DNA of 64,000 nt, taken from Sphingomonas immobilis. GTDB lineage: Bacteria; Pseudomonadota; Alphaproteobacteria; Sphingomonadales; Sphingomonadaceae. The position numbers and the translations under genes are program-made. Shown in pieces: positions 32,602 to 37,431 of the stretch. Below the pieces are notes generated by a model, which was not told the origin of the DNA, did not search any database, and saw only the letters and a program-made list of their open reading frames with translations. Position 1 is the stretch's first letter; each line of letters starts with the position of its first letter. Location: positions 248,001 through 312,000 of the forward strand of contig NZ_JAUQSZ010000003.1 in assembly GCF_030580995.1 (NCBI RefSeq), written 5' to 3'.

Positions 32602-32672
32602 AACGAAGGTGACATCGCGGCTTGGCCAGCAAAAGGGAAGCAACAAAAGACGAACTCGCCCGTTGTAGCTTC

Positions 32673-32867
32673 ATGTCGATCAAGTCCGAACCGGCCGTGC
32701 GCGAAACGATCCAGAACGGATACGCTGTCGGCGTACCGCAATTCTGCGATACTGTTGGCGGATCGCTGGCACAGGCTTTTGCCACGGGCGACGACGATCT
32801 CGGCGATTTCGAAGCGTTGCTGCGCCAACTCGATGCCATTCCGGCGAGCGCCGAAACCCGCAATTGA
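32673..32867 (+). CDS. Possible small hypothetical protein
   Basis: 64 codons from ATG to TGA, acidic C-terminal half, no membrane segment. Third codon positions are GC-rich as in neighbouring genes, which supports coding. No convincing ribosome site is present, and a longer TTG-started frame from 32622 exists. The stop lies six bases from the convergent ecfG stop. I do not recognise a family. Confidence 0.4.
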   Translation: MSIKSEPAVRETIQNGYAVGVPQFCDTVGGSLAQAFATGDDDLGDFEALLRQLDAIPASAETRN

Positions 32868-32873
32868 GCCGCT

Positions 32874-33524
32874 TCAGCGGTCCTTGCTGAGATCCGCAAC
32901 CTCACCCATGATCGTGTCGAGCGCGGTCATTCCCGGTTCGTTGCTGTGTGTGCGACGCGACGGCAGGCTGTTGTCGTTCATCAGCGCCTCGAGCGCGACG
33001 CGGCCGCGCGCGACGCGGCTCTTGATCGTGCCGACAGCGACGCCGCAGATATCTGCCGCTTCCTCATAGGCGAAACCTCCCGCGCCGACCAGGATCAGCG
33101 CCTCGCGCTGCGGCTGGGGGAGATGCAACAAAGCGCGCTGCATGTCGCCGAGTTCGACGTGACGGTCCTGGCTGGCCGGAGCCGCGAGAATGCGGTCAGC
33201 GACGAGATCATCCCATTCGCCCTTGAAGCGCGCGCGGCGCATCTGCGAAAGATAGAGATTGCGCAAGATGATGAACGTCCAGGCGCGCATGTTTGTGCCG
33301 GCCTGGAATCGCTGACGAGCGGCCCATGCCTTCATCAGCGTTTCCTGGACAAGGTCGTCGGCGAGGTCGCGGCTGCCCGACAGCGAGCGCCCAAACGCGC
33401 GCAGGTGCGGGATGACGGTTGCCAATTCCTTTTTGAAATCACCATCCGAAAGCGCGACATGCTCCACCACCTCGGCCGGAGCGTCGTCATCGTCTTCGGT
33501 TATGTTCGAATCGCTCATCAGCAT
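32874..33524 (-). CDS. ecfG: General stress response ECF sigma factor EcfG
   Basis: 216 residues with sigma region 2 (DLADDLVQETLMKAWAARQR at about 54-73) and region 4 (REALILVGAGGFAYEEAADICG followed by VGTIKSRVARGR). Both are typical of the EcfG/RpoE2 group. EcfG directs transcription of stress genes from GGAAC-N16-CGTT promoters, is sequestered by NepR, and is released when phosphorylated PhyR binds NepR. phyR, nepR and phyP are the neighbouring genes. A 48-codon membrane protein gene and a hairpin precede it, so expression may be partly read-through from there. Confidence 0.95.
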   Translation of the reverse strand: MLMSDSNITEDDDDAPAEVVEHVALSDGDFKKELATVIPHLRAFGRSLSGSRDLADDLVQETLMKAWAARQRFQAGTNMRAWTFIILRNLYLSQMRRARFKGEWDDLVADRILAAPASQDRHVELGDMQRALLHLPQPQREALILVGAGGFAYEEAADICGVAVGTIKSRVARGRVALEALMNDNSLPSRRTHSNEPGMTALDTIMGEVADLSKDR

Positions 33525-33576
33525 CCGTTTCGTTTCCCGTGTCTCAACATGGTGAGGGGGGCGTCAAAGTCCAACC

Positions 33577-33598
33577 GGGCGGCCATAAAAGGCCGCCC
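33577..33598 (-). terminator. Hairpin between the 48-residue gene and ecfG
   Basis: Perfect 8-bp stem gggcggcc/ggccgccc around ataaaa. It begins two bases after the stop of the small gene on the minus strand and 53 bases before ecfG. It could terminate or attenuate transcription into ecfG. Confidence 0.6.
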
Positions 33599-33599
33599 G

Positions 33600-33746
33600 T
33601 CAGTGTCCGTTCCAGATGAGGATGATCGCGAACAGCACGATGATGGCGATTAGCGAGATGCCCAGAACGTAGCGCGTGACGTGAGGCGTTACTCCGCCGC
33701 GCGCGTCGTTTCCACTGATCTCAGTCGGTTCGTTTTCGTCAGCCAT
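33600..33746 (-). CDS. 48-residue single-pass membrane protein upstream of ecfG
   Basis: The frame encodes an acidic, polar N-terminus (MADENEPTEISGNDARGG) and one strongly hydrophobic helix of about 20 residues (YVLGISLIAIIVLFAIILIW) ending NGH. It is on the ecfG strand, directly upstream. There is no good ribosome site before the ATG; a near-EcfG promoter places transcription almost at the start codon, so it may be leaderless. Family unknown to me; position suggests a link to the stress response. Confidence 0.6.
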   Translation of the reverse strand: MADENEPTEISGNDARGGVTPHVTRYVLGISLIAIIVLFAIILIWNGH

Positions 33747-33754
33747 GAGGTAGA

Positions 33755-33779
33755 AACGGATGAAATCCGTTTTGGCTCC
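33755..33779 (-). promoter_or_regulatory. Near-consensus EcfG promoter before the ecfG unit
   Basis: Minus strand: GGAGC, 16 bases, CGTT. One mismatch to GGAAC. It would transcribe the 48-residue gene and possibly ecfG, giving autoregulation. The short distance to the start codon makes it uncertain. Confidence 0.35.
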
Positions 33780-33795
33780 GTACCGAATGGAACCG

Positions 33796-33817
33796 GGCCT
33801 GAAAAAAGTTTCAGGCC
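33796..33817 (-). terminator. Terminator overlapping the phyR stop
   Basis: 9-bp stem ggcctgaaa/tttcaggcc with a four-base loop; the phyR TGA lies in the stem. On the minus strand it closes the phyR transcript before the small membrane gene. Confidence 0.6.
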
Positions 33818-34614
33818 GGCACCGTCGCCGCGTCGAAGAACAAGGCCTGGCTGATCGCCGCCTTTACGGTAGACCGCTGGAAAGGCTTGGTAATCAGGAA
33901 GGTCGGCTCGGGGCGCTCGCCGGTCAGCAGACGCTCGGGGAAGGCAGTGATAAAGATCACCGGCACTTCGAACTCGGCAAGAATGTCCTTCACCGCGTCG
34001 ATGCCCGAACTGTCGTCGGCAAGCTGAATATCGGCCAGGACGAGGCCCGGACGGTCTTCCATCGCCAGCGCCACCGCTTCGTCGCGGGTGACGGCCACGC
34101 CGGTCACTTCGTGGCCGAGATCGCGCACGATCGTCTCGATATCCATTGCGATGATCGGCTCGTCCTCGATGATGAGAACGCGGCTGCGCGTCTGCTTCTC
34201 GATTTCGGACAACGCCTCGGCGACGAGCGATTCGACCTCAGCCGGTTCAACCTCGATAAGGTACGCCGTATCCTCGGGCGTGAAGCCTTCCATCGCTGTC
34301 AGCAATAGCGCCTGACGCGACAATGGCGTCATGCGGGCGAGGCGCGCGCGGGCGATCGCCTCTACGCTGGCACCTTCGTCGGCACCGGCATTTTCCGCCG
34401 TCTCGTCGTAGTTGGTCGAGCCCCAGATCGCCTGGAACATGCGATAGAGGCCCAGGCGCGGGTCCACGTCCTTGGGAAATTCGGTCGGTGCCGCGACGAT
34501 CGCCTCGAGCGTGGCGCGGACGTAGCGATCGCCGTGCGACTGGCTGCCGGTAAGGGCGCGGCCGTAGCGGCGAAGAAACGGAAGGTGCGGTGCGAGCTGC
34601 TGGCCAAGCGACAT
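33811..34614 (-). CDS. phyR: Response regulator PhyR (anti-anti-sigma factor of the general stress response)
   Basis: 267 residues in the inverted order unique to PhyR: an EcfG-like sigma domain without DNA-binding function at 1-140 (FLRRYGRALTGSQSHGD, MTPLSRQALLLTAMEGF) and a C-terminal receiver with E150/D151, phospho-acceptor D195 (LVLADIQLAD) and the conserved lysine in ITKPFQR. Phosphorylation exposes the sigma-like domain, which binds NepR and frees EcfG. The ATG at 34614 is chosen because PhyR proteins start there. nepR and phyP lie divergently upstream. Confidence 0.96.
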   Translation of the reverse strand: MSLGQQLAPHLPFLRRYGRALTGSQSHGDRYVRATLEAIVAAPTEFPKDVDPRLGLYRMFQAIWGSTNYDETAENAGADEGASVEAIARARLARMTPLSRQALLLTAMEGFTPEDTAYLIEVEPAEVESLVAEALSEIEKQTRSRVLIIEDEPIIAMDIETIVRDLGHEVTGVAVTRDEAVALAMEDRPGLVLADIQLADDSSGIDAVKDILAEFEVPVIFITAFPERLLTGERPEPTFLITKPFQRSTVKAAISQALFFDAATVPA

Positions 34615-34725
34615 GACTGTCGAAAACTCCTCGAAAAAAGCGACCGTCATTCTGAAAGCGACGGGACGCAGATGCAATGCGCTTCGCCCGGAAAACGACC
34701 CCCCGGAGTTTTTCGCATCGCAAGT

Positions 34726-34750
34726 GGAACAATCGAGCGGGTCTTTAGTT
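34726..34750 (+). promoter_or_regulatory. EcfG-type promoter upstream of nepR
   Basis: GGAAC, 17 bases, GTTT (equivalent to GGAAC-N16-aGTT). Directed toward nepR-phyP, with a leader of about 95 bases. Autoregulated nepR transcription is known in related bacteria. Confidence 0.6.
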
Positions 34751-34856
34751 TCATCGCCACTACACGACGTGTATCGACATTTTTCTCGTTTCCCGGAAAT
34801 GGTACGGGAGCATAACAATCTGCCGGGGTGAAACCCGATGCCCAAGGGGGACGACA

Positions 34857-35018
34857 TTGCGTTCTGGCGAAGAGTCTTCGAAAAAACCGCCGAGCGCGCG
34901 CGCGAAGATCCAAAGCAAGGATCGTGACATGGGCGCGGCGCTGCGCACGGTCTACCAAAAGACCGTGGACGAAAAAGTGCCGCCCGAGATGCTCGACCTT
35001 CTGGGCAAGCTCGACTGA
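34857..35018 (+). CDS. nepR: Anti-sigma factor NepR
   Basis: 53 residues from a TTG start, with AGGGGG six bases upstream. The C-terminal half carries the NepR signature: MGAALRTVYQKTVDEKVPP followed by EMLDLLGKLD, two short amphipathic helices that bind either EcfG or the sigma-like domain of phosphorylated PhyR. The basic N-terminus (SSKKPPSARAKIQSK) is disordered in this family. There is no ATG in frame before residue 25, so the TTG is needed to supply the usual length. It is followed by phyP after eight bases. Confidence 0.9.
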   Translation: MRSGEESSKKPPSARAKIQSKDRDMGAALRTVYQKTVDEKVPPEMLDLLGKLD

Positions 35019-35026
35019 CCCCAGTA

Positions 35027-36619
35027 ATGGACGAGCCAATCGGCGCGCCCGTCGTTGATCCGGTGCCGCATCGCAGCGCGATCGCCCGGATTCCGACGGG
35101 CGCGAAAGTTTTTCTGATTCTGAGCGCGGCGTTGCTGCCGCTGGCGATCATCGCCTTTTTCGCGACGATACGGACGACGCAGATCGCCGACCAAGGCGCA
35201 CGCGCGGCGCTGCGCATCGCCACCGCCGAGAGTGCGCGGAAAGTCTCCATCGAGCTTGTCGGCGACATGACCGCGCTGCGGGTGGCGTTGAGCGCGCTCG
35301 ACGCCGACCCCGGCGACGCGCCGAGTTGCGCCCGCGCGACCGGCGTGTTCGCGCCGCAATCCGCTAACGGTGCGCGCTTCGTAGTCTCCGATGCGCGCGG
35401 CCAGCCGATCTGCGGCAGCGCTTTTTCCGCCGATGTCGCTCCGGCCACCCCGGCGGGTGAAGATCCGATCGCCGCGCGCGTAATCGAAGGGCGCGGCGTG
35501 ACGTTGTCGATCCGCGGTGCGAGCGGGCGGACGCGCGCCGCCGCCTTCTTCCCCGCCACTCTCCTCGCCGACGTCGCACGACCGAGCGAATTCGCGCCCG
35601 ATTACGAGGCGAAGCTGGTGCTGGGCACCGATTCGGTCTCGCTGTTCGAACTGCCCGAACGCGGCGTTCTCGACCGGCGCGAGACGATCCGGCTTGGCAT
35701 CGGCATCGGTGGCCTGGTTTTGCAGACACGCGCATCGAGCGGCGAGATCACTTCGCCGCTGCTCGTCGCGATGCTGCTGCCGATCGTGATGTGGGCCGCG
35801 GCGGCGGGCATCGCGTGGTTCATCGTCGACCGGTTGCTGATCCGCCCGCTGCGCCGCCTGCGGCGTAGCGTCGCCGCCTATGTTCCCGGTGAAGAGATCG
35901 CGCTCGATACGATCAACGTGTTGCCCGCGCAGGAGATTCGTGAGCTCGGCGACACCTTCCGCACGATCAGCCGCACTGTCGCCGAACACGAGGCCGGCCT
36001 CGCGGAGGGACTGGTGCGTCAGACGAAGCTGACGCGCGAGGTGCATCACCGCGTGAAGAACAATTTGCAGGTCATCTCCAGCCTGATCAATTTCCACGCG
36101 CGCGGCGCGAAGAGCGCGGAGGCGACCGCCGCCTATGCCTCGATCCAGCGCCGGGTCGATGCGCTCGCCGTCGTCCATCGCCATCATTTCGCGGAGCTGG
36201 AAGAGAATCGCGGCCTGTCGTTGCGCTCGGTGATCGGCGAGCTTGCGTCGAACATCCGTGCGACGGCACCTGAGGGCACTGGCAAGCTCGGCATCGCGGT
36301 GGAGGTCGCGCCGCTTCTCGCCAGCCAGGATGTTGCGATCGCGATCAGCTTTCTGATCACAGAGCTCGTCGAACTGGCGATGACCTTCAGCCCGGCGGCG
36401 CAGGTGCGCGTCTCCATACGCGATGCCGACGTGCCCGATCGCGCGGTCGTCCGCGTGGCATCCCCGGCGCTGATCGAGACGGATGACCTGCGGCAGGTGA
36501 TCACGGATCGCTACGGTCGCGTTACCGAGGGGCTCGCGCGACAGCTGCGTTCGAAGCTGCACTACGATCCGTTGGTCGGCGCCTACGAAATACAAATTCC
36601 GGTTTCGGGCCGCGACTAA
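35027..36619 (+). CDS. phyP: PhyP, degenerate HisKA_2-type histidine kinase/phosphatase acting on PhyR
   Basis: 530 residues: membrane segments at about 28-46 and 246-268 flank a periplasmic domain, then a HAMP-like linker, then a HisKA_2 dimerisation domain with H341 (REVHHRVKNNLQVISSL). The ATPase region is degenerate: where active kinases have ELxxNAxKH, this has ELVELAMTFS, lacking the N-box asparagine, and I see no clear G-boxes. In Sphingomonas strain Fr1 the gene at this position encodes PhyP, a negative regulator thought to dephosphorylate PhyR. The gene follows nepR by eight bases. Confidence 0.88.
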   Translation: MDEPIGAPVVDPVPHRSAIARIPTGAKVFLILSAALLPLAIIAFFATIRTTQIADQGARAALRIATAESARKVSIELVGDMTALRVALSALDADPGDAPSCARATGVFAPQSANGARFVVSDARGQPICGSAFSADVAPATPAGEDPIAARVIEGRGVTLSIRGASGRTRAAAFFPATLLADVARPSEFAPDYEAKLVLGTDSVSLFELPERGVLDRRETIRLGIGIGGLVLQTRASSGEITSPLLVAMLLPIVMWAAAAGIAWFIVDRLLIRPLRRLRRSVAAYVPGEEIALDTINVLPAQEIRELGDTFRTISRTVAEHEAGLAEGLVRQTKLTREVHHRVKNNLQVISSLINFHARGAKSAEATAAYASIQRRVDALAVVHRHHFAELEENRGLSLRSVIGELASNIRATAPEGTGKLGIAVEVAPLLASQDVAIAISFLITELVELAMTFSPAAQVRVSIRDADVPDRAVVRVASPALIETDDLRQVITDRYGRVTEGLARQLRSKLHYDPLVGAYEIQIPVSGRD

Positions 36620-36659
36620 TTTTTTTGAGAAAAAATATCGAAAATTTCTCGTGGGGCCG

Positions 36660-36684
36660 GGAACCACTTTGGGCAGAGGCCGTT
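36660..36684 (+). promoter_or_regulatory. EcfG promoter downstream of phyP
   Basis: GGAAC, 16 bases, CGTT, an exact match. Transcription would start near 36692 and pass a 13-bp hairpin (36737-36789) before the entericidin-like gene at 36910. It may yield both a short RNA ending at the hairpin and a longer mRNA. Confidence 0.6.
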
Positions 36685-36736
36685 CTACACTTCGGATAGT
36701 GACCTTATGCCCCCCCGCTCTCGCTATCCAAGACAT

Positions 36737-36789
36737 GGGACCGAACCTGCCGCCCTTCCCCCCCCCCCCCCGGCGCCAGGTTCGGTCCC
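36737..36789 (+). terminator. 13-bp hairpin with a 14-C homopolymer in the loop
   Basis: Perfect stem gggaccgaacctg/caggttcggtccc (36737-36749 and 36777-36789). The 27-base loop contains 14 consecutive C (36758-36771). A run of A then TTTT follows. Likely terminator or attenuator of the upstream promoter. Confidence 0.6.
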
Positions 36790-36909
36790 AAAACTTTTCA
36801 GGCTCCTGAAATCCCCCACATTTTCGATTGATCTCATAAGCCGTTGCCGATGCGGAACGGACCACCGCGTCGATCATTGATCGCCTGCAAGGCTTTCAGG
36901 AGATCCCCA

Positions 36910-37002
36910 ATGCGCAAATATATCGGACTGGTCCTCGTCGCCGGAGCGTTGCTCGTCAGCGCGTGCAACACGGTCGCCAAGACCGCTCACGACACGAAAT
37001 AA
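36910..37002 (+). CDS. Entericidin-like small lipoprotein
   Basis: 30 residues: basic start, hydrophobic stretch and lipobox VSAC with C19 (LVLVAGALLVSACN), then a short mature part TVAKTAHDTK. This is the layout of EcnA/EcnB entericidins, membrane lipopeptides often induced by stress, though the mature part is shorter than usual. The ATG has no strong ribosome site (agatcccca upstream). Preceded by an EcfG promoter match, it is probably part of the general stress regulon (inference). Confidence 0.72.
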   Translation: MRKYIGLVLVAGALLVSACNTVAKTAHDTK

Positions 37003-37020
37003 GATCGGTTCGAGCGGCGT

Positions 37021-37045
37021 GGAACAGTCTTGCCGGGCGGGCGTT
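37021..37045 (+). promoter_or_regulatory. EcfG promoter before the GCG_CRPN protein gene
   Basis: GGAAC, 16 bases, CGTT, an exact match to the consensus. The expected start near 37052 leaves a 44-base leader to the ATG at 37096, with GAGAGG as ribosome site. Confidence 0.65.
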
Positions 37046-37095
37046 CCCCAGCCACCCGAAATCGGGTCACCAGCGTAACAAACCGAGAGGTTGTC

Positions 37096-37368
37096 ATGAA
37101 CAAATTGATTCTCCTCGCGCTCGCGGCCGGTGCCGCCATCGCGACGATTCCCGTGGCGGAGGCCCGCGACGGTTGCGGCCGGGGCTTCCATCGCGGTCCG
37201 GCCGGGCATTGCCGCCCGAACGGCTATGCGCGCGGCGGTCCCGTCGTGGTCGGCGGGCCCGGCGTGTCGCTGGTTGTCGGCAACTACTATCGTGGCAGGG
37301 GCTATTGGGATGGTCGCCGCTATTACCGCGAGCGCTATCGCCATCACGGCGGCTGGCGCTATCGCTGA
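37096..37368 (+). CDS. Exported GCG_CRPN-motif protein rich in Gly, Arg and Tyr
   Basis: 90 residues. A signal peptide (MNKLILLALAAGAAIATIPVAEA) precedes DGCGRGFHRGPAGHCRPNG, the GCG...CRPN motif that NCBI uses to define a family of small alphaproteobacterial proteins. The remainder is Gly-, Tyr- and Arg-rich (RGRGYWDGRRYYRERYRHH), highly basic and probably unstructured in the periplasm or at the cell surface. No function is known. It stands behind an EcfG promoter match and before a terminator shared with tatC. Confidence 0.8.
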   Translation: MNKLILLALAAGAAIATIPVAEARDGCGRGFHRGPAGHCRPNGYARGGPVVVGGPGVSLVVGNYYRGRGYWDGRRYYRERYRHHGGWRYR

Positions 37369-37391
37369 GGCGCGCGCCTTACGAGGCTGGA

Positions 37392-37421
37392 AGGGCGGTG
37401 GTCGCAAGACCGCCGCCCTTT
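37392..37421. terminator. Bidirectional terminator between GCG_CRPN gene and tatC
   Basis: 12-bp stem agggcggtggtc/gaccgccgccct with one G-T pair and loop gcaa, followed by TTTT on the plus strand and preceded by AA. It serves the convergent tatC gene as well. Confidence 0.75.
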
Positions 37422-37431
37422 TCGTTGGCGA

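Follow-up and report, generated by a model that had tools for sequence, protein, structure and literature searches.

The general stress response (GSR) of sphingomonads, that of Sphingomonas melonis Fr1 included, has so far been described through proteins. We analyzed the GSR locus of Sphingomonas immobilis within a 64,000-nucleotide (nt) stretch of contig NZ_JAUQSZ010000003.1 (positions 248,001 to 312,000, referred to here as the window) and identified, downstream of phyT, a predicted two-hairpin RNA that appears to be a previously missed RNA component of the GSR in Sphingomonas and its relatives and that would add an RNA layer to this response. The GSR locus itself is real, and the initial annotation of the window, which had described a complete partner-switch locus of ecfG, phyR, nepR, and phyP, had placed all four genes correctly. 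The ecfG gene (32874 to 33518, minus strand) is placed as in Fr1 and encodes sigma-70 r2 and r4_2 domains above their Pfam cut-offs; among the NCBIfam matches listed for its product, only the general ECF superfamily TIGR02937 was above its cut-off. The product of phyR (33811 to 34614, minus strand) matched the NCBIfam PhyR family PRK09191.1 at 377.5 bits against a cut-off of 240. The nepR gene (34857 to 35018, plus strand, with a presumed TTG start) encodes a protein that scored 27.7 bits for Pfam NepR PF18557, with a cut-off of 25.7, and 19.8 bits for the NCBIfam NepR equivalog, far under its cut-off of 100. The phyT gene (35027 to 36619, plus strand) encodes a HisKA_2 kinase that corresponds by position to PhyP/PhyT of S. 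melonis; "PhyP" is the older name, now re-designated PhyT according to the accessible text of PMC5898713. The gene order is the same as that of Fr1 as given by locus numbers in the parts of PMC6599016 and PMC5898713 that were available (#1442, phyT, nepR, phyR, #1446, ecfG, nepR2).

Three EcfG-type promoters, all on the plus strand, were found where the initial annotation had positioned them: before nepR-phyT (34726 to 34750, GGAAC-N16-AGTT), downstream of phyT (36660 to 36684), and before the gene for a GCG_CRPN small exported protein (37021 to 37045), the last two being exact matches to GGAAC-N16-CGTT. Counts of the bare motif were rejected as evidence, as they were not above chance in the window or in the genome. 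The window contained three matches to GGAAC-N15-19-CGTT versus 2.15 expected from shuffles, which is not significant, and the whole genome contained 72 forward matches to GGAAC-N15-18-CGTT, fewer than the 112 reversed-control matches. The promoter sites are significant because they are conserved across loci, not because of these counts. All 61 Sphingomonas genomes searched had a match to phyT, covering most of the gene in 60 and only weak in one (G007), and the phyT locus was fetched from 60. Every one of these 60 loci had GGAAC-N16-NGTT located 16 to 107 nt past the phyT stop codon (CGTT in 53, TGTT in 4, and GGTT in 3). Divergent phyR/nepR pairs had an EcfG-type promoter between them in 80 of 82 cases (GGTT in 62, TGTT in 10, and AGTT in 8).

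The initial annotation had assigned the 36660 promoter to a 30-residue lipoprotein gene, and this was not borne out. In 60 of 60 genus loci a conserved RNA follows that promoter (the copy in locus L011 is cut by the contig end), and the lipoprotein gene is preceded by a separate conserved promoter of the CATT type, missed by the annotation, at 36854 to 36878 (plus strand, GGAAC-N16-CATT, 31 nt before the ATG). The predicted small RNA lies at 36692 to 36799 on the plus strand and is approximately 105 nt long, its start and end being estimates. The plus strand from the 36660 promoter to the lipoprotein gene gave a two-hairpin fold with a z of -7.35 relative to 200 shuffles, and both hairpins have C-rich loops. 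Stem 1 is formed by 36694 to 36702 with 36721 to 36729, and its loop (36703 to 36720) holds a C7-GCT core. Stem 2, which is terminator-like, is formed by 36736 to 36749 with 36777 to 36790; its loop contains 14 C (36758 to 36771), and a weak U-tract follows at 36795 to 36798. Both stems were present in the minimum-energy fold of the 112-nt stretch in all 59 complete genus copies, and when 130 nt were folded, loci L023, L027, and L051 paired stem 1 differently.

The stems of this RNA covary while the C-run of its loop is conserved. In each of the 49 aligned genus copies, the run in loop 1 comprised six or more C, and GCT came next. Across the loci compared, the C-run with the following GC was 90 to 100% conserved, compared to 49% for the 3' tail. 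Stem 1 occurred as the variants GGATAGCGA, GGATCGCGA, GGACAGCGA, and GGACGGTGA, each with a matching 3' arm. In alignment A1, which contained 49 genus sequences aligned with MAFFT and made no use of structure, 97.2% of the cells paired and 13 of 27 pairs were changed on both sides. In alignment A3, comprising 50 sequences across genera that were fitted to the model and hence biased towards it, changes on both sides were found in 26 of the 27 pairs; stem 1 was 99.6% paired, and all nine of its pairs had such changes. None of 500 shuffles equaled the observed value on any of five measures, and no slid version of A1 approached the observed pairing. The promoter, structure, covariation, and conservation of this RNA are shown at the level of sequence.

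We then considered how widely the RNA occurs. Covariance model R1 matched 26 of 147 genomes of the order at E <= 1e-3, one of them (G062) probably by chance, and covariance model R2 matched 97 of 249 genomes of the family, in 40 of 96 genera. A core pattern of 22 letters with 20 fixed bases, searched in named genomes, was found at no fewer than 80 loci in Sphingomonas, Stakelama, Hephaestia, Sphingomicrobium, Sphingosinicella, Parasphingopyxis, Sphingorhabdus, and other members of the order, four of the titles being unspecific; since this pattern fixed seven C and the preceding TG, the 80 loci are uninformative on variants of these positions. The genus and pattern sets combined gave 140 loci, 12 of them not distinct; 139 have the core as written, and 128 of these 139 are unique. 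An EcfG-type promoter was located at most 60 nt upstream in 139 of 139 core loci (130 with GGAAC-N16-NGTT, 8 with N17-CGTT, and 1 with N16-CATT). The phyT gene was no more than 400 nt upstream of the RNA in 111 of the 122 distinct loci with sufficient sequence, farther upstream in 6, and not found in 5, and tatC was on the opposite strand in 112 of 121. Among the RNA copies listed from a model search, 21 of 22 had GGAAC-N16/17-NGTT just upstream, the exception being L080; two further matches (L086 and L087) look like chance and were excluded. In a 60-genome sample of the order, full-length PhyR was present in 13 of 14 genomes of the family versus 1 of 46 others; the occurrence of the RNA therefore follows that of the GSR. 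Divergent forms were seen at L080 to L083 (genus g5), L084 (g9), and L085 (g11), with a GGAAC-type promoter in all but L080, and L081 to L083 combine another stem-1 sequence with the same C-run. Five genomes (G194, G208, G215, G379, and G384) had two R2 matches each, the second weaker (E of 1e-7 to 6.7e-4); these second matches may be paralogues of the RNA or chance, and that of G194 looks like chance.

With the promoter 16 to 107 nt past phyT in all 60 genus loci, the hairpins would also end the nepR-phyT operon, and the element might be only the terminator and 3' end of that operon, a stable piece of which may persist after processing. We regard this as very improbable. The promoter stands at a fixed distance from stem 1 (9 nt between promoter end and stem in 123 of 130 loci, with a range of 8 to 12 nt), and a simple terminator would have no need of an additional 5' hairpin whose loop is conserved. 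In some genera, moreover, the RNA is unlinked from the GSR locus. In G094 (g5) it lies beside tatC on a contig different from that of phyR, hundreds of kb from a contig end, and its GGAAC-N17-CGTT promoter is retained, which indicates a gene of its own rather than the mere end of a phyT transcript. In G124 (g9) no GSR gene was found in the 10 kb surrounding the RNA, and the promoter is kept.

The RNA might instead contain the beginning of a small open reading frame (ORF). An ATG or TTG precedes the loop-1 C-run in 122 of 128 loci and a GTG in 1, and the C-run is seven long in 116, although, of the 140 loci at the outset, 80 had been chosen by the pattern that fixes the TG and seven C; in the window, the frame would begin MPPRSRYP. 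In 12 loci the length of the C-run is 6, 8, or 9, and the number of C in loop 2 ranges from 6 to 14; the start position is ACG or AAG in 5 loci and yet other codons occupy it in certain other genera, and the stem variants alter amino acids and keep the pairs. With frames not kept and the start codon not constant, we rejected this ORF, whose existence we consider extremely unlikely. Loop-2 C-runs spanned 6 to 14 across 126 loci, a range that suggests that the length of the run may slip.

The closest known RNA is GsrN of Caulobacter, which according to the available text of PMC5869019 is directly activated by sigma-T and has a C-rich 5' loop that pairs with G-rich mRNA sites, as shown there for katG. 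GsrN homologues are described as typically being near the GSR locus, and the legend to Figure 9 of the same paper states that no gsrN-like gene is apparent in Erythrobacter litoralis; the word Sphingomonas is absent from its main text. The sphingomonad RNA resembles GsrN in its sigma-T/EcfG-type promoter, its size (about 106 nt), its 5' C-rich loop, its 3' terminator-like hairpin, the place near the GSR locus that is usual in relatives, and the expectation of G-rich targets. Of the features that mark GsrN-type RNAs, it has a near-consensus EcfG/sigma-T promoter, proximity to ecfG, nepR, and phyR (judged by the distances to phyT given above), and, in the predicted fold, an exposed C-rich 5' loop; at its 3' end it has a strong hairpin with a weak U-tract. 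It differs from GsrN in having a second C-rich loop, within the terminator-like hairpin, and in that the katG leader is not a supported target. Kinship of the two RNAs is unproven, and the GsrN sequence itself was not among the comparisons. We do not call the RNA GsrN because homology was undetected and a coarse katG test was null. The resemblance suggests that stress RNAs with C-rich loops recur in Alphaproteobacteria beyond the Caulobacteraceae and the rhizobial groups treated in the accessible text of PMC5869019.

Taken together, we think it very likely that transcription from the 36660 promoter is EcfG dependent and yields a separate small RNA, about 105 nt in length, that acts as a GsrN-like posttranscriptional arm of the GSR. 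Upon stress, PhyR would free EcfG, which would then transcribe the RNA from the 36660 promoter, and the strong hairpin at the 3' end would terminate the transcript short of the lipoprotein gene. We infer expression, EcfG dependence, and termination and, by analogy with GsrN, expect that the exposed C-rich loops may base-pair with G-rich sites in mRNA 5' regions. The lipoprotein and GCG_CRPN genes would form separate EcfG-type transcription units.

Several observations weigh against this interpretation. The longest T run after stem 2 was three or fewer in 83 of 126 loci, and with so weak a U-tract, read-through into the lipoprotein gene is possible. The same weakness favors the reading of the initial annotation, in which transcription from the 36660 promoter yields the mRNA of the lipoprotein; the hairpins would then serve as a 5' leader or attenuator. 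Also in favor is a small lipoprotein ORF that 106 of 121 loci have downstream of the RNA, on its strand (found with a loose pattern that made at least one false pick, at L181). We think a lipoprotein mRNA improbable here: 95 of these 106 ORFs are preceded by their own conserved promoter, GGAAC-N15-17-N(G/A)TT, nearly always with CATT; the Fr1 counterpart, #1442, is listed with a CATT promoter in the available part of PMC6599016; and in 15 of the 121 loci the RNA is present and no such ORF was found. Returning to the stand-alone RNA, further points against it concern its range. R2 had no match in 152 of the 249 family genomes, and in 240 genomes of the class it found only four matches, two from Sphingomonas and two weak ones (L108/L241 and L109/L242) that we rejected because they had no adjacent promoter and no GSR genes within 10 kb. 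There was therefore no credible match beyond the family in this class-wide search, and for this reason a common origin with GsrN is unproven. Seven PhyR-bearing genomes from six genera that had no model match also had no promoter with a C-rich hairpin near phyR, so the RNA is not universal. The katG leaders were no more complementary to loop 1 than were control gene starts (30 katG starts versus 372 controls, P = 0.73) in a coarse test that used one loop sequence for all genomes and the best 30 loci of 60 genomes with a match, with guessed starts, some of which look mis-picked; katG is thus not supported as a conserved target. Finally, the main text of the Fr1 EcfG transcriptome paper (PMC6599016), as far as available, contains no mention of sRNA, non-coding, or GsrN. 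For the terms searched, small RNAs were likewise not mentioned in the accessible text of PMC6599016 and PMC5898713, and no sphingomonad GSR small RNA was recognized in the open literature among the matches listed, judged by titles and the starts of abstracts.

We examined the mRNAs of the locus for complementarity to the loops. No enrichment was found for the phyT, ecfG, tatC, or lipoprotein mRNAs, and phyR and a 48-amino-acid ORF between phyR and ecfG gave a weak signal with loop 2 only. The signal for nepR was strong. Of 85 loci, 84% had a G-run of at least five around the start of nepR, compared to 9% of 136 control ORFs and 0 to 28% for six other genes of the locus, and the duplex energies for nepR, which hinge on the guess of the start codon, were better than those of controls (one-sided P of 6e-10 for loop 1 and 3e-18 for loop 2). 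In the window, the corresponding G-run, a putative Shine-Dalgarno sequence, is located at 34846 to 34850. Across genera, the arrangement "G4+ N3-11 start codon" was present in 27 of 32 nepR genes where the RNA is linked, versus 3 of 30 where the genome had no model match. For plain G-runs the values were 30 of 32 versus 13 of 30 for runs of at least four and only 14 of 32 versus 5 of 30 (P 0.03) for runs of at least five, and RNA-positive genomes in which the RNA is unlinked had a run of at least four in 2 of 8. Common ancestry, the arrangement of the genes, and G+C content (0.60 versus 0.54) all confound this association. It is possible, if doubtful, that the RNA loops cover the G-run Shine-Dalgarno sequence of nepR and lower NepR, or raise it in the manner of GsrN and katG, once EcfG is active. 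Such pairing would form a feedback loop within the locus, with the anti-sigma gene nepR, about 1.8 kb upstream of the RNA, as the target, and would put the core partner switch itself under RNA control. We regard nepR as our boldest lead, not as a result.

No Rfam family matched the RNA, and no Rfam match overlapped it in 11 diverse loci. In the window there were only sub-threshold matches, of mraW on stem 2 alone (21.2 bits versus a threshold of 50) and of U6 on the opposite strand, where it covers the promoter and the first bases of the RNA (15.7 versus 44). Matches to ar35 and asX1 (37313 to 37426 and 37345 to 37426) are due mostly to the terminator that follows the GCG_CRPN gene and were rejected.

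The lipoprotein gene (36910 to 37002, plus strand) encodes an entericidin-like protein of 30 amino acids. Its relatives are usually 44 amino acids long, and the 14 residues missing from the window copy lie where the relatives have two NTV-like repeats. Lipoproteins of three relatives (that of L003 and two others) passed the threshold for Entericidin PF08085, with 25.9 to 30.5 bits versus 23.3, whereas the window protein was under this cut-off and matched no Pfam family; it differs from the Entericidin EcnA/B family in that most of the motif lies in the 14 residues it lacks. We conclude that it is a shortened entericidin, perhaps arising by loss between two NTV-coding repeats. In Fr1, #1442, a "Predicted small secreted protein" next to phyT, has the promoter GGAACGAATGGCCCGACCGATCATT 30 nt upstream, the same GGAAC-N16-CATT class at the same distance as for the window lipoprotein, and is among the top EcfG-regulated genes, with a log2 ratio of -4.7 (accessible text and Table 1 of PMC6599016).

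The GCG_CRPN gene (37096 to 37368, plus strand) encodes a small exported protein of 90 amino acids that scored 45.9 against a cut-off of 24 for NF047412 and is the only match to this family in the genome. Homologues were present in 12 of 61 genus genomes; the 11 others were not on the phyT contig or were megabases away. With L254, which had no tblastn match, left out, 11 GCG_CRPN loci were compared, and 4 of them, that of the window among them, have a site of the 37021 type at -75/-76: GGAAC-N16-CGTT in the window, L245, and L246, and N17-GGTT (at -75) in L247. No such site was found at -75/-76 in L244, L248, or L249 to L253, and L249 has GCAAC-N16-CGTT at -127. A predicted EcfG promoter for this gene is credible because the nearest homologues keep it at the same distance. 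Going by the genomes compared, the place of the gene beside the GSR locus is private to the window genome, and it is absent from the published order of Fr1 as available. The proposal that the locus carries its regulatory circuit and two envelope effectors side by side therefore holds insofar as each small gene has its own EcfG-type promoter and fails in that GCG_CRPN is not part of the conserved locus. Likewise, the conservation of promoter and small genes after phyP that the annotation had asked for was found, with an RNA as the conserved first product.

Two further small ORFs have counterparts by position in Fr1. The 48-amino-acid ORF (33600 to 33746, minus strand), which probably encodes a single-pass membrane protein, occupies the position of #1446 (log2 of -6.2 in the EcfG table of PMC6599016, as available) and had a tblastn match in 47 of the 51 loci whose stretch includes ecfG. 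A 64-amino-acid ORF at 32673 to 32867 (plus strand), convergent with ecfG and preceded by GCAAC-N16-CGTT at 32640 to 32664, has the position of Fr1 nepR2 (#1448) and is possibly nepR2; it had no Pfam match, and BLASTP against the window NepR gave no alignment. NepR-like ORFs with GCAAC-N16-CGTT were found at the nepR2 position in 3 of 56 loci (L048, L049, and L148) with a strict pattern.

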